A stretch of DNA of 64,000 nt from Antiquaquibacter soli (GTDB lineage: Bacteria; Actinomycetota; Actinomycetes; Actinomycetales; Microbacteriaceae): positions 310,001 to 374,000 of the forward strand of contig NZ_JAUQUB010000001.1 of the NCBI RefSeq assembly GCF_030580675.1, in the 5' to 3' direction. The notes beneath the pieces are model-generated. The model was given only the letters and a program-made list of their open reading frames with translations. It had not been told where the DNA came from and ran no database searches. Position numbers and translations under genes: made by a program. This document shows, in pieces, positions 5,149 through 60,073 of this stretch (the stretch's first letter is position 1; each line of letters opens with the position of its first letter).

Positions 5149-5251
5149 GCATCCATGCTCCCGGGGCCGCGCGTACCGCACCATTCCCAAACCGGCTGAA
5201 CCCGCCATCAACCGATCGGTGGATGCTCCCGCGCCCCGCCCACCGTTGAGT

Positions 5252-5307
5252 GGCGAGTTCCGCCCCTTCCGGGCCCGAACTGGGGACGGGGAAGGGGCGG
5301 AACTCGC
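5252..5307. repeat. Palindromic repeat copy A, 3' side of DUF559 gene 1
   Basis: An inverted repeat with 18-base perfect arms (5253-5270 and 5290-5307) around a 19-base loop; the arm core is GCGAGTTCCGCCCCTTCC. It ends four bases before the stop codon of the DUF559 gene. A near-identical element is found at 6282-6336. The left flanks (31 bases) and the right arms plus the following bases (36 bases, to about 5322) are identical between the two, forming direct repeats around the gene. Five more diverged members lie elsewhere in the window. It could also act as a transcription terminator. Confidence 0.9.
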
Positions 5308-5310
5308 TAG

Positions 5311-6195
5311 TCAGCGTCGCGCGATCGTGTTGCGGATGCGGGTGAGGAGCTCCCGGGGGTTCGCCAGGTCGTCCTTGCTCACCTCGATGACGGTCCAGCC
5401 GGAGGCCTGGAGCCGGGAGCGCCGGAGCATGTCGGCTCTCTGTTGAGCTGGGTCGAAGTGGTACTCACCCTGGTACTCGATCGCGATACGGGCCTCGCGG
5501 ATCGCGAAGTCGGTGCGGTACCGATGGCCGCTCACCGTGGTGATCCAGACATTGACCTCCACTTCGCCCAGGCCCGCTCGAGCGAGGATGAGACGGAGGT
5601 GCGACTCGCGCCTCGACTCCGACCGGTCGCTCAGGAGCGGAAGCGCGGCGCGCAGCCGCCGGACGCCACGATCCCCCGCCCGCCGATCGACCGCGGCGGC
5701 GAGGTCCGCGAAGGCGACGAGCGGGCTGGTTCTCCTGATGAGGAAGTCCCCCGCCGCCACGAGGTCGCGCATCGCAAGCCGCGGGGCCAGATCGACCCAC
5801 GTGCGAGCGGGGCTCGTGAGACGGATGCCCGCCCTGGTGGCGAGCTCATCGGCGCCCACTCCGAGCACCCGCCCGCGGATCCCTCGACCTGTGGGGGCCC
5901 TGCCCGAGTCGAGCGCGACGGTGATGGGCTCAGAGTCGCACCACAGGGGTAGAGGCACGCCCCACAGTCTCGCGGCGGTAGCGTCGCACGCGAAGCCCGC
6001 GGGGATCCGGGTCAATACGGAGCGGCACAGCATGTCGACGGTGACCTCGACATCCCTCGAGACCCAGACTCCGTGGGCGGGCGACACGAGATCGGGGCCG
6101 CCTAGCCGTCGACGTCCGAGTCCGTGCGCGACCGCCTCGGCGGTCGTGAAGGTGCGGTGGCGAAGCGGCGGGGGCAGGGGGATGCGAGGTGCCAT
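5311..6195 (-). CDS. DUF559 (VSR-like PD-(D/E)xK) protein, paralogue 1
   Basis: A 294-residue protein. The N-terminal part (about 1-190) resembles AbiEi-type winged-helix proteins (FTTAEAVAHGLGRRRL, then RLTSPARTWVDLAPRL). The C-terminal 100 residues are a DUF559 domain related to very-short-patch-repair and PD-(D/E)xK nucleases. Candidate catalytic residues are Asp229 in YRTDFAI and Glu240 in IAIEYQGEYHFD, with basic LRRSRLQ following. The ATG at 6195 gives the start MAPRIPLP, which matches the paralogue at 10052; an upstream in-frame ATG at 6270 is less likely. No AbiEii toxin gene is adjacent. The gene sits inside a unit bounded by two copies of one palindrome. Biochemical function is unproven for this family. 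Confidence 0.85.
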   Translation of the reverse strand: MAPRIPLPPPLRHRTFTTAEAVAHGLGRRRLGGPDLVSPAHGVWVSRDVEVTVDMLCRSVLTRIPAGFACDATAARLWGVPLPLWCDSEPITVALDSGRAPTGRGIRGRVLGVGADELATRAGIRLTSPARTWVDLAPRLAMRDLVAAGDFLIRRTSPLVAFADLAAAVDRRAGDRGVRRLRAALPLLSDRSESRRESHLRLILARAGLGEVEVNVWITTVSGHRYRTDFAIREARIAIEYQGEYHFDPAQQRADMLRRSRLQASGWTVIEVSKDDLANPRELLTRIRNTIARR

Positions 6196-6281
6196 GACCT
6201 CGATAGTCGGCGAGCCCGAGTCATCCCGGGCCGCGTCCCGCCCAACTGTGCACTCCTGCGGGCTGTGCACAGCACTGAGTG

Positions 6282-6336
6282 GCGAGTTCCGCCCCTTCCG
6301 GGCCCGGATTTGAGGCGGGGAAGGGGCGGAACTCGC
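6282..6336. repeat. Palindromic repeat copy B, 5' side of DUF559 gene 1
   Basis: The same 18-base arms as copy A (6282-6299 and 6319-6336) with a 19-base loop. The right arm runs into the last codons of the 72-residue membrane protein gene, whose stop (6336-6338) lies at its edge. The arm and the bases after it, to about 6351, are identical to those at the end of the DUF559 gene, so two unrelated genes share the same 3' end. Copies A and B are offset by 1029 bases, and the DUF559 gene fills the space between them. Confidence 0.9.
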
Positions 6337-6554
6337 TAGTCAGCGTCGCGCTGGGCAGGGGTGAGGGCGCGGGCTATCGCGCCGACGACGGCGGCGAGCA
6401 CCATGAGGCCGCCGAACGCGATCACCAGCCACACGGCCGAGGTCCACGACCATGAGCCGAGCAGTGCCGTCATCCCGGCCACGATCGCGATCAGCAGGAG
6501 CACCGCTCCCCAGAAGATCGTCCCGCCGCGGGGGGTGAGTCGGGTGGTGCTCAT
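6336..6554 (-). CDS. Small two-segment membrane protein
   Basis: A 72-residue protein. Two hydrophobic segments (about residues 13-32 and 38-60) are separated by a short turn containing SWSWTS; both ends are basic or polar. The ATG overlaps the stop of the PspC/toastrack gene (ATGA), so it is probably translated with it as part of an envelope-stress operon. I do not recognise a family with confidence; small membrane proteins of this size often accompany PspC/LiaF-type genes. Its last residues (QRDAD) are encoded within the repeat shared with the DUF559 gene, so the native C-terminus may have been altered by whatever event placed that unit here. Confidence 0.75.
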   Translation of the reverse strand: MSTTRLTPRGGTIFWGAVLLLIAIVAGMTALLGSWSWTSAVWLVIAFGGLMVLAAVVGAIARALTPAQRDAD

Positions 6555-9988: not shown

Positions 9989-10053
9989 GAGTTGCGACTT
10001 CCGCAGGTTCCCCGCCGGATCACACCGCGCCGAGGATGCGCAACTCGCAACTC
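9989..10053. repeat. Palindromic repeat copy C, 3' side of DUF559 gene 2
   Basis: Arms 9989-10005 and 10037-10053 (17 bases, two mismatches) around a loop of about 31 bases. The left arm core is GAGTTGCGACTTCCGCA. It separates the response regulator stop from the DUF559 stop, which overlaps the right arm. It belongs to the same family as copies D to G; 21 of 22 left-arm bases match copy D at 11026, so gene 2 is also bounded by a pair of related palindromes. Confidence 0.85.
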
Positions 10054-10939
10054 ACCGCCGTGCGAGCGTGCGTCGGATGCGATCAAGCAGGTCAGTCGCG
10101 TGGTCGAGGTCTCGTCGGCTCACCTCGATGACGATCCAGCCGTCTGCCTGCAATCGCGATCGGCGGACCATGTCCGCCTGCTGTCGCTGCGGATCATGGT
10201 GAAACGCACTCTGGTACTCAATGATGATCTTGCGCGCGGGATCGACCAGATCCCCTCGATATCGGTGACCGTCGCTCGTAGCGACCCAGACGTTCGACTG
10301 GAACTGCCCCAGTCCGTTGGAGACGAGAAGTACTCGGAGGTGCGACTCCCTGCGCGACTCCGACCCCTCATCGAGCAGGTCCCAGGCCGCACGAGCGCGC
10401 TTCACTCCTCGCTGCCCCGTGCGCGCCAGGATCTCGTCCTGCAACGCGGCTCGGCTCGTCAGCGGCCGTCCGCCAAAGATGAAGTGGTCCCCGACGGCGA
10501 CGAGATCGCGAAGCGATAACTCCGCCGCGATATCGACCCAGGTCGCGGCGGGGCTGGTCACGCGGATGCCGTGAATGGTCGTGATCATCGTCGGACGCTC
10601 ACGTCGTACGCTGCCCCGGAGCCCTCGCCCGGTCGGCGCAGTTCCCGCGGTCACCGCAACGTGGACGAGCCGGGATGCCGCCTGCTGGGGCAGTGGCGCA
10701 TTCCACAGCTCCGCCGCGGTGAGTCCCACGAAGAAGGCATCGGGGGGAACGCGCTTCGCGAGGGCAGCGCAGAGAACGTCGACCGATAAGTCTGACGCCG
10801 TCGCGAGGTGCACTCCGCGGAACGGTGACTCGAGGTCCGACCCGGCTAGCCGTCCGCGCCCGACCCCCTCCGCGCGTGCCTCGGCGGTCGTGAACGGAGC
10901 GGCCGCGAGAGCGGCGGGGAGAGGGATTCTAGGGCGCAC
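10052..10939 (-). CDS. DUF559 (VSR-like PD-(D/E)xK) protein, paralogue 2
   Basis: A 295-residue paralogue of the protein at 5311, roughly half identical over its length. It shares the N-terminal FTTAEARAEGVGRGRL region, the central VTSPAATWVDIAAELSLRDL and the C-terminal DUF559 domain. Candidate nuclease residues are Asp230 in YRGDLVDP and Glu241 in IIIEYQSAFHHD, followed by QQADMVRRSRLQADGW. The start MRPRIPLP aligns with the MAPRIPLP start of paralogue 1. It is flanked by palindromes C and D. The function of DUF559 proteins with an AbiEi-like N-terminus is not established; no partner toxin gene is seen here. Confidence 0.87.
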   Translation of the reverse strand: MRPRIPLPAALAAAPFTTAEARAEGVGRGRLAGSDLESPFRGVHLATASDLSVDVLCAALAKRVPPDAFFVGLTAAELWNAPLPQQAASRLVHVAVTAGTAPTGRGLRGSVRRERPTMITTIHGIRVTSPAATWVDIAAELSLRDLVAVGDHFIFGGRPLTSRAALQDEILARTGQRGVKRARAAWDLLDEGSESRRESHLRVLLVSNGLGQFQSNVWVATSDGHRYRGDLVDPARKIIIEYQSAFHHDPQRQQADMVRRSRLQADGWIVIEVSRRDLDHATDLLDRIRRTLARR

Positions 10940-11027: not shown

Positions 11028-11098
11028 CGCGAGTTGCGAGTTCCGCACCTTCCGGCGCGGAATCGGCAGCGAGAAAGCTGCGAAACTCGCAACTCGCG
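11028..11098. repeat. Palindromic repeat copy D, 5' side of DUF559 gene 2
   Basis: Arms 11028-11047 and 11079-11098 (20 bases, one mismatch), with core CGCGAGTTGCGAGTTCCGCA and a 31-base loop. It lies between the DUF559 gene start and the aspC stop at 11107. With copy C it brackets the DUF559 gene, and it may also terminate aspC transcription. Confidence 0.9.
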
Positions 11099-16185: not shown

Positions 16186-16256
16186 TCGTCGGTGCGGGCA
16201 TCCGGCCCCCCCCGTCCCTGCCGCCCTTCCCCGCCCCTGCTGCCCTTCCCCGTCGC

Positions 16257-16314
16257 GCGGGAGTTGCTGCGCTCCGCGGGTGCTCCAGCACCCGCGCGCC
16301 GCAGCATCTCCCGC
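16257..16314. repeat. Nested palindrome upstream of rplK promoter
   Basis: Outer arms 16257-16271 and 16300-16314 (15 bases, one mismatch) enclose a second perfect palindrome, GCGGGTGCT/AGCACCCGC (16276-16284 and 16287-16295), with only CC between. The whole could form a long cruciform or RNA hairpin. It occupies the middle of the 308-base nusG-rplK gap, after the nusG terminator and before the rplK -10 element. It does not match the GAGTTGCGAGTTCC repeat family. Confidence 0.75.
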
Positions 16315-16339
16315 GCTACCGGTGCGGCGCGATCTCGCG

Positions 16340-33786: not shown

Positions 33787-33851
33787 GTTTCTCAGGAATA
33801 TGCCGCTTCCGAGGGGATAGTGCGCGCGGCGGCGGCATATTCCTGAGAAAC
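33787..33851. repeat. 20-base-arm palindrome, distinct from the GAGTTGCG family
   Basis: Perfect arms 33787-33806 and 33832-33851 around a 25-base loop; the arm is GTTTCTCAGGAATATGCCGC. The AT-rich centre of each arm is unusual for this genome. It lies between convergent genes, where it could terminate both, but length and base composition suggest a mobile or repetitive element. Confidence 0.85.
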
Positions 33852-42519: not shown

Positions 42520-42586
42520 CGAGTTGCGAGTTCGGCACCTCCGCTAGCGCGCTGACGGCGCGCACGCATGCGGAACTCGCAACTCG
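42520..42586. repeat. Palindromic repeat copy E
   Basis: Arms 42520-42537 and 42569-42586 (18 bases, one mismatch), core CGAGTTGCGAGTTCGGCA. It lies between the convergent MscS and DUF305 genes, where it may also terminate. Same family as copies A-D but with no DUF559 gene beside it. Confidence 0.88.
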
Positions 42587-43970: not shown

Positions 43971-44067
43971 CCTGTCGTTGCTGTGGGCAGGGGATCTGTC
44001 CGCCTATTCTGCTGGCTGGATGCTCGGAACACCATGTGAACGCATCGAGTGGCGGGCCGTGGCGCAA

Positions 44068-44134
44068 CGAGTTGCGAGTTCCGCACCTTCGTGCAGCGGT
44101 TTCGATGTCCGGAAGGTGCGGAAGTCGCAACTCG
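44068..44134. repeat. Palindromic repeat copy F
   Basis: Arms 44068-44089 and 44113-44134 (22 bases, one mismatch), core GAGTTGCGAGTTCCGCACC. It sits in the 227-base gap upstream of DUF3105, and so lies in a promoter region, unlike the copies placed at gene ends. Confidence 0.9.
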
Positions 44135-44197
44135 GTGGGCGATCAACACTAGGCTCGCCTCACCCACACCCCCACCCCCACACAGAGGAATGATCGG

Positions 44198-44491
44198 ATG
44201 CTGTTCCTCTTCGCCATGCTCCTGGCGCTGTGCCTGATGGCCGTCGCCGCCGTGGTCGGTCTCGTGTTGAGCATCGGGGGACCGAATGAGCGAACCGCGC
44301 TCGCAGGTGCCTCGCATCATCGCGTACGTAGGGATCCTCGTCGGTGTCGCCGCGGTGGCGTCCGTCGTGCTGCTGACCGCCGACGACAGTGTCAAGTGGT
44401 GGATGCTCGGAGCCGTCGGTCTCGTCGCCGCCGTCGGCCTACTGCTCTGGCCGCTCCACAACCTGCGTCGGTAGTCCTGGGCCGACGGTGA
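44198..44491 (+). CDS. Small reading frame with N-terminal membrane helix (doubtful)
   Basis: A 97-codon frame. The first 28 residues form a convincing hydrophobic segment (MLFLFAMLLALCLMAVAAVV) with AGAGGA upstream, but the rest is Arg-rich and overlaps a better small gene in another frame from 44286. Either only the first part is meaningful (a frameshift would join it to the second gene) or the frame is spurious. Confidence 0.25.
   Translation: MLFLFAMLLALCLMAVAAVVGLVLSIGGPNERTALAGASHHRVRRDPRRCRRGGVRRAADRRRQCQVVDARSRRSRRRRRPTALAAPQPASVVLGRR
44286..44474 (+). CDS. Small two-helix membrane protein
   Basis: A 62-residue protein. Polar start (MSEPRSQVPR) then two hydrophobic helices (about 11-31 and 38-57) separated by TADDSVKWW, ending PLHNLRR. 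GGGGG precedes the ATG at 44286. No family recognised. It lies between palindromes F and G and upstream of cbs. Confidence 0.55.
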   Translation: MSEPRSQVPRIIAYVGILVGVAAVASVVLLTADDSVKWWMLGAVGLVAAVGLLLWPLHNLRR

Positions 44492-44555
44492 GTTGCGAGT
44501 TCCGCCCCTTCCGGACCGCGTTCGGGCCCCGGGAAGGTGCATAAGTCGCCACTCA
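44489..44555. repeat. Palindromic repeat copy G (degenerate)
   Basis: The left arm GAGTTGCGAGTTCCGCCCC from about 44490 pairs imperfectly (about five mismatches in 23) with 44531-44555. It is recognisable as the same family by its left arm, which combines features of copies A/B (CCCC) and C-F (GAGTTG). Confidence 0.65.
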
Positions 44556-44615
44556 GGGCAGCCATACCCCGCGCCCCGTAACACCCCCGCTCCCCGCAAC
44601 TAAACTGGCCAGACC

Positions 44616-59973: not shown

Positions 59974-60002
59974 TTGACAGATGTGACCGTTTCGCGTGTA
60001 AT
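59974..60002 (+). promoter_or_regulatory. Promoter of araD2-chvE-gguA-gguB
   Basis: TTGACA at 59974-59979 (consensus -35) and TGTAAT at 59997-60002 with a 17-base spacer. An operator copy fills the spacer and another lies just downstream of the start region. Confidence 0.7.
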
Positions 60003-60030
60003 CTGATGGTCGTCATGTGAAACGGTCACA
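59982..60030. promoter_or_regulatory. Paired LacI-type operators in araD2 promoter
   Basis: Site 1 (59982-59996) reads TGTGACCGTTTCGCG. Site 2 (60016-60030) reads TGTGAAACGGTCACA, whose reverse complement is TGTGACCGTTTCACA, so the two are the same 12-base core in opposite orientation, 34 bases apart. Site 1 overlaps the -35/-10 spacer and site 2 the early transcribed region, a standard repression layout. Confidence 0.75.
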
Positions 60031-60073
60031 TTGCGTCACATGATCAGTCGGAAACCTGAGACAACGGAGTCGC

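Follow-up and report, generated by a model that had tools for sequence, protein, structure and literature searches.

DUF559 genes and their private flanking palindromes in Microbacteriaceae: a probable REPtron-like unit with an unrelated enzyme

REP-like systems and the DUF559 locus

Repetitive extragenic palindromes (REPs) and the REP-associated tyrosine transposases (RAYTs) are the textbook case of a gene partnered with dispersed palindromes. In the excerpts of Nunvar 2010 considered here (PMC2817692), RAYT genes are described as flanked by two palindromes, co-evolving with them, evolving faster in place than their neighbours, and accompanied by palindrome copies that follow the gene. A comparable arrangement is found at two DUF559 genes, here called genes 1 and 2, in a 64,000-nucleotide stretch of the Antiquaquibacter soli genome (contig NZ_JAUQUB010000001.1, positions 310,001 to 374,000; the window). 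The comparisons reported below make it probable that a DUF559 gene co-evolves with its palindromes as one unit, similar to a REPtron (RAYT/TnpA-REP) with an unrelated enzyme, in which a nuclease would read and cut its own palindrome and repair would copy it.

Other described systems share single features with this unit. TIRtrons, RAYT genes flanked by terminal inverted repeats in the part of the source used (PMC3733652), resemble the DUF559 genes of Curtobacterium, whose flanks are likewise inverted repeats, and have an unrelated enzyme. EDxHD homing endonucleases such as I-Bth0305I (PDB 3R3P) are alike in nuclease fold; no intron or intein was seen at DUF559 genes, the other half of the DUF559 protein is AbiEi-like, and its candidate target flanks the gene and is also dispersed. 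AbiEi antitoxins (6Y8Q; Rv2827c, 1ZEL) share the fold of that half and, in the partial accounts available, bind inverted repeats. The DUF559 version is fused to a nuclease, and no nucleotidyltransferase gene was recognised beside genes 1 and 2. To our knowledge, VsrA of Caulobacter has no AbiEi-like half. It shares the nuclease domain, and the sections of its description drawn on here note its DUF559 domain and predict a mismatch-repair nuclease (PMC12907096); the string 'palindrom' does not occur in the main text of that paper. No paper joining DUF559 to such palindromes was found in the open-licence PMC literature, where papers using other names would escape the search.

DUF559 gene 1 (5311..6195, minus strand; start ATG at 6195, frame open from GTG at 6270) lies between two palindromes, assigned to neither strand and delimited by hairpin and repeat comparison, at 5247..5314 on its 3' side and 6276..6343 on its 5' side. 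The sequence-only reading had recognised both and drawn them slightly too narrowly (5252-5307 and 6282-6336); its offset of 1029 bases between the copies is exact, as are the shared stretches, 31 bases at 5247-5277 and 6276-6306 and 36 bases at 5287-5322 and 6316-6351. The middle between the identical stretches (5278-5286) differs between the copies. Each palindrome folds as a single long hairpin (z of -8.4 and -8.9 against 200 shuffles), and the arm GAGTTCCGCCCCTTCC, with up to three mismatches, has 9 matches in the window against 1.24 expected, a number reached in none of 100 shuffles.

The 36-base repeat closes two unrelated genes, as had been claimed. At 5287..5322 (no strand) it comprises the right arm and the 12 bases, stop included, with which the coding sequence of gene 1 closes; gene 1 ends CGACGC TGA, with the stop codon at 5311-5313. 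At 6316..6351 (no strand) it comprises the right arm and the last bases of a 72-residue membrane-protein gene (6336..6554, minus strand), which ends GAC GCT GAC TAG with the stop at 6336-6338, so that the right flank of the 5'-side palindrome ends that gene. Gene 2 (10052..10939, minus strand) shows the same arrangement, with related palindromes at 9989..10053 on its 3' side and 11028..11098 on its 5' side, the latter adjoining the end of an aminotransferase gene; both are without strand, and their hairpins have z of -3.1 and -5.8 against shuffles. At its own thresholds, Rfam reported one tRNA and no other RNA family in the window.

Matching flanks and private palindrome families

A profile built from three proteins of the window's genome was used to search other genomes. 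At E 0.001 it found a match in 18 of 27 congeneric genomes, and in 15 of these the match reached 1e-15 or better; among named genomes it found 45 loci, most of them in Microbacteriaceae (genomes and loci carry working handles, G and L). The gene set for flank comparison, 86 genes from Microbacteriaceae and a few other actinobacteria, was drawn from 95 modelled loci, two of which had no match (L044, L045) and seven of which were left out as distant (L043, L098, L100, L101, L105, L106, L107). For each gene, the 350 bases upstream were compared with the 350 bases downstream, with a threshold score of 17.

The two flanks of a DUF559 gene match each other. The mean own-flank score of the 86 genes is 28.2, and the best of 10000 permutations reached 19.0. 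A score of at least 17 was obtained for 67 of the 86 genes and for none of 115 control frames, which were selected from the 45 named loci on length and composition, not on annotation; for the named loci alone the figures are 34 of 42 against the same 0 of 115. A clear hairpin stands at the match on both sides in 40 of the 67 pairs and on one side in 16. The palindrome sequences vary from gene to gene across the set. The window's genome has six of these genes, whose palindromes likewise differ, and four of the six score at least 17. Outside the family the signal is weaker but present, with a mean of 20.3 against a permuted maximum of 15.9. For 30 Rathayibacter loci the permutation test (own mean 32.9, permuted mean 27.7, maximum 54.3) is uninformative, because orthologues there share one palindrome.

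The palindromes also occur away from the genes, in families private to the genomes that carry the cognate gene. The arm of genes 1 and 2 (arm A) has 20 matches in the window's genome, 5 of them flanking the two genes, and 11 in total in the other 26 congeners, with at most 2 in any genome; the reversed control gave 5. Arm B belongs to another gene, located at C1:189 kb, and to the G009 orthologue of that gene, L030; it has 12 and 34 matches in these two genomes, four in each being the gene flanks, and none in the remaining 25 of 27. In G003 the orthologue (L029) is present with a changed palindrome, and arm-B matches are absent. Arm C, from Rathayibacter, was matched in 30 of 249 genomes of the family sample and more than twice in only three, all Rathayibacter. 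Among 15 Rathayibacter genomes, the ten with the arm-C palindrome at the gene have 4 to 23 matches, in nine cases beyond those of the gene itself; three with other palindromes at the gene (G271, G281, G278) have 1, 1 and 0, and two in which the gene match never exceeds 155 bits (G141, G279) have none. Thus the expectation that palindrome copies track their gene was borne out: solitary copies stand in carrier genomes and are nearly absent from non-carriers.

These copies are structured elements. The second arm is in register and free of gaps in 26 of 27 arm-B elements. In these, pairing begins a few bases outside the core and extends 18 bases into it; the middle is variable, and the flanking sequence farther out looks unique. 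Where both arms were matched, one arm starts 40 bases from the start of the other in family B, 35 in family A and 28 in family C. None of 39 elements lies inside a coding-like frame; this count leaves out the arm-B match L226 (no second arm, and also outside the 26), the arm-A matches L014, L015 and L022 (no second arm, L022 coding), and the two-mismatch arm-A matches L018-L020.

Two explanations without mobilisation by the nuclease bear on these data. Ordinary terminators, or chance hairpins in GC-rich DNA, would agree with the frequent position of the elements between convergent or tandem genes. They are, however, already contradicted: neither arm at gene 1 is followed by a T tract, a terminator scan restricted to loops of 3-8 called neither gene 1 palindrome, both flanks match in a sequence-specific manner seen in no control frame, and the palindromes are limited to genomes with the cognate gene. 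Alternatively, the palindromes could be operators through which the AbiEi-like half represses its own and other genes, with copies spread by ordinary recombination and the nuclease having another job such as repair. AbiEi and Rv2827c, whose folds both match, bind inverted repeats in their own promoters according to the consulted part of PMC7319586, and a median of 71 bases separates the end of the upstream repeat from the point where the profile match begins. Yet the second repeat begins a median of 9 bases past the stop codon, not at a promoter. Among elements with readable context, gene flanks included, 0 of 12 and 0 of 8 lie between divergent genes in two families, against 4 of 12 in the third; operators would also leave unexplained the inversions and empty sites at palindrome edges described below. 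This explanation is therefore considered unlikely.

Change in place, empty sites and inversions

The DUF559 protein evolves faster than the neighbouring genes at conserved chromosomal places. Many pairs of loci have proteins 50-75% identical at the same place, flanks about 70-97% identical over about 1 kb, and different palindromes. At eight Curtobacterium loci the mean identity falls in a box-like manner, from mostly 0.85-0.95 near the unit to 0.32-0.75, with the lowest values around the flanking repeats; within the unit it falls to 0.31-0.85 and 0.64-0.82 in two Rathayibacter groups. For 55 Curtobacterium pairs, which are not independent, the median protein identity is 0.58 for the cassette and 0.89 for the neighbour, and the median identity at fourfold sites is 0.38 and 0.60, respectively. 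The palindromes change together with the protein: their similarity is 0.80 at protein identities above 70%, 0.23 at 50-70%, and near background below.

In the gene tree, genes 1 and 2 are sisters (100/97) and stand beside the G021 and G017 genes of the same aminotransferase site (100/96). On this topology, the simplest reading is that gene 1 may have arisen when gene 2 was copied to a place 5 kb away in the lineage of the window. The aminotransferase itself is present in 26 genomes and is followed by a DUF559 gene in four (G000, G021, G017 and, in part, G018). At the gene 2 site, the two flanks of the unit meet in G020 with 2 bases between them, 206 bases occur in G009, and 98 in G003, including a single palindrome of other sequence. 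Short inserts in the gap that separates the aminotransferase gene from the LuxR-regulator gene differ from relative to relative (L124 in G009, L125 in G003), and this gap is possibly a hotspot.

The claim that gene 1 is a palindrome-bounded unit found support in G009 and G003, where its site is empty; G020, in which the right flank was not found, is outside this comparison. The further suggestion of insertion into a pre-existing palindrome is not supported at this site. The site holds 101 bases in G009 and 38 in G003, the two relatives with both flanks found, and no hairpin in these bases exceeds background (the best score 8 and 5, respectively); insertion of gene 1 into such a palindrome was rejected. 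The neighbouring gene's 3' end was indeed remade. The frames of the orthologues of the 72-residue gene cross the insertion point and read on for 29 codons (G009) and 18 codons (G003) beyond the match, and their 3' ends are unlike that in the window; the insertion of gene 1 therefore appears to have shortened the gene and given it a new end. In sum, relatives do not all carry the gene here with unrelated flanks, and genomes without it do not have the palindromes in equal abundance.

Rearrangements bounded by palindromes were also observed in Rathayibacter. The whole palindrome-gene-palindrome unit has been inverted in some species relative to others, lying one way at four loci and the opposite way at three. 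The breakpoints fall at the palindromes, and the flanks are 89 and 91% identical (L066 against L102). Empty sites with a single palindrome, proposed for gene 1 and not seen there in G009 or G003, were found for another cargo: in G195 (L299:2072-5701), about 3.4 kb with two secreted-looking frames lies between palindromes with near-identical spacers, and the corresponding place has one palindrome in G277 and G275 and two close together in G071.

Such cargo in one Rathayibacter genome could also speak for another enzyme, for example an unseen transposase, moving the palindromes with the DUF559 gene as a passenger; Nunvar 2010 (PMC2817692) gives RAYT transposases as the presumed movers of REPs. 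A passenger would not match the palindrome in sequence, and since each palindrome type goes with its own DUF559 type, both from gene to gene and from genome to genome, this explanation seems very improbable.

Three solitary palindromes of the gene 1/2 family, none assigned a strand, lie elsewhere in the window. The one at 42520..42586 is absent at the corresponding place in G009, and G003 has a 5.3-kb stretch there; those at 44062..44140 and 44489..44555, the latter with a degenerate right arm, are absent in both genomes. Between the last two, in the block 44055-44558, are about 350 bases with a 62-residue membrane-like frame, in place of which G009 has 22 bases and G003 has 13. A palindrome CGCGGGAG...CTCCCGCG at 16249-16322 is like those beside a more distant AbiEi-like gene, L105 (G000:C7:329 kb), and these perhaps represent a further family of the same kind. 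The distant homologue L107 (G000:C1:648801) has similar hairpins, TTCCGGCGGATTCCG and TTTCGGCGGAATCCG, on its two sides. Two more strong inverted repeats, of other sequence, are at 33787-33851 and 59981-60031.

Proposed mechanism and relation to REPtrons

By predicted fold, the gene 1 protein combines an AbiEi-like N-terminal half, whose 190 residues match AbiEi (6Y8Q) and Rv2827c (1ZEL), with a C-terminal EDxHD/Vsr-fold nuclease domain. Invariant residues include E197, R201, D229, Y241 and D255, with H246 conserved at 90% or more. The HUH Y1 transposase domain (PF01797) was not among the six families matched by 46 proteins at E 0.01, nor found in five proteins at E 1. A fold search among viral proteins gave 18 matches at E 0.001, of which several carry the name DUF559, Vsr or endonuclease, and a plasmid search gave four distant records. 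Across the phylum, DUF559/AbiEi-like proteins occur in 92 of 296 sampled genomes (E 1e-15, up to seven candidates scored per genome).

The AbiEi likeness raises the idea of a system of the restriction-like or addiction kind, with palindromes that either label the cell's own DNA or titrate the nuclease. All three proteins scanned have matches to PADLOC AbiEi models; those for genes 1 and 2 are weak, and the match of the third protein reaches 1.8e-8. Against this, a Pfam scan of five genes neighbouring genes 1 and 2, the only genes so surveyed (ABC ATPase, the 72-residue protein, which has no match, PspC-domain protein, LuxR regulator and aminotransferase), gave no match to an AbiEii nucleotidyltransferase or methylase; the ABC ATPase also matches PF13304, an AAA model whose description names a putative AbiEii toxin. 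Such a system seems very improbable.

In the mechanism proposed for the co-evolving unit, the AbiEi-like half would recognise the cognate palindrome, about 60 bases long, as a fixed-length double-strand site or an extruded hairpin, and the Vsr/EDxHD-like half would cut or nick it. Host repair of the break may copy palindromes into new extragenic places, and repair from other copies could convert the two flanking palindromes to one sequence. Palindrome-bounded segments, the gene itself and sometimes other cargo, would thereby be gained, lost or inverted. Homogenisation of the flanks by conversion is suggested because the repeat takes in 12 bases of gene 1 and recurs beyond the right palindrome, in the manner of a conversion tract. 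The sequence-only reading had raised the idea that DUF559/Vsr-like proteins act on these palindromes as RAYTs do on REPs. The copies that follow the gene, the palindrome-bounded unit and the empty site support the likeness to RAYTs well; we infer that the protein binds and cuts the palindrome and that repair is the copying step.

Several points weigh against the proposed mechanism. A hydrolytic nuclease alone cannot join DNA. Copy numbers are low, with at most 34 arm matches per genome for the three arms searched, and the many cassettes at fixed places imply that spreading is rare. The correlation between protein and palindrome is weak (Mantel 0.12, reached by 7 of 2000 permutations). In 11 of the 67 matching pairs there is no clear hairpin at the match; six of these are Curtobacterium, whose cassettes (L059-L095) often lack clear palindromes and instead have one flank that is an inverted repeat of the other. 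Nineteen of the 86 genes score below 17, including two of the six in the window's genome (L103, L104), although L103 carries the arm CGAGGTGAG on both sides. The structural match to AbiEi has an rmsd of 6.6, and Foldseek found no PDB match at E 0.001 or better, the best being Rv2827c at 1.8e-3. Other results are adverse or uninformative: the own flank ranked first in 51 of 86 genes, and in 11 of 26 outside the family; the order of the two palindromes is direct in 22 of the 67 pairs, inverted in 43 and tied in 2; the two arm-C matches beyond the gene in G274 are unpaired, one-mismatch and background-like; and the comparison of cargo is less clear-cut at L297 than it is at L299, as G071 keeps a regulator gene at the L297 place with one palindrome.

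The likeness to REPtrons, as far as the sources used describe them, holds in the main: two flanking palindromes, joint change, fast evolution in place, and extragenic copies that follow the gene. In contrast, the enzyme joins a nuclease of Vsr/EDxHD fold to an AbiEi-like half and is not an HUH Y1 transposase, the conserved GT(A/G)G head occurs in 0 of 17, 0 of 9 and 6 of 13 elements of the three families, and REPtrons usually have more than 100 copies per genome, according to the same partial sources. The palindrome order at DUF559 genes is also not always inverted, and the system was found here in actinobacteria. The DUF559 unit thus works like a REPtron but is no member of that group, because the defining enzyme, head motif and abundance differ.

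On a broader and more tentative level, these units may represent an independently evolved class of palindrome-mobilising systems in Actinomycetota, a proposal somewhat less likely than not to hold. A hydrolytic homing-type nuclease with an antitoxin-like reader would keep, copy and rewrite private palindromes by cut and repair, creating cassettes that are captured, lost and flipped, and the specificities of protein and palindrome would shift together at a fixed chromosomal place. DUF559 and its palindromes look like a partnership of the kind that REPs form with their transposases, in a second and unrelated version. If so, such gene-palindrome partnerships evolve repeatedly, here with an unrelated hydrolytic enzyme, and what is essential to them, a palindrome-reading protein, could be separated from what is not, the HUH chemistry. 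The large group of DUF559/AbiEi-like proteins would gain a testable function, and would offer natural pairs of a protein and a 60-base site that have shifted together.
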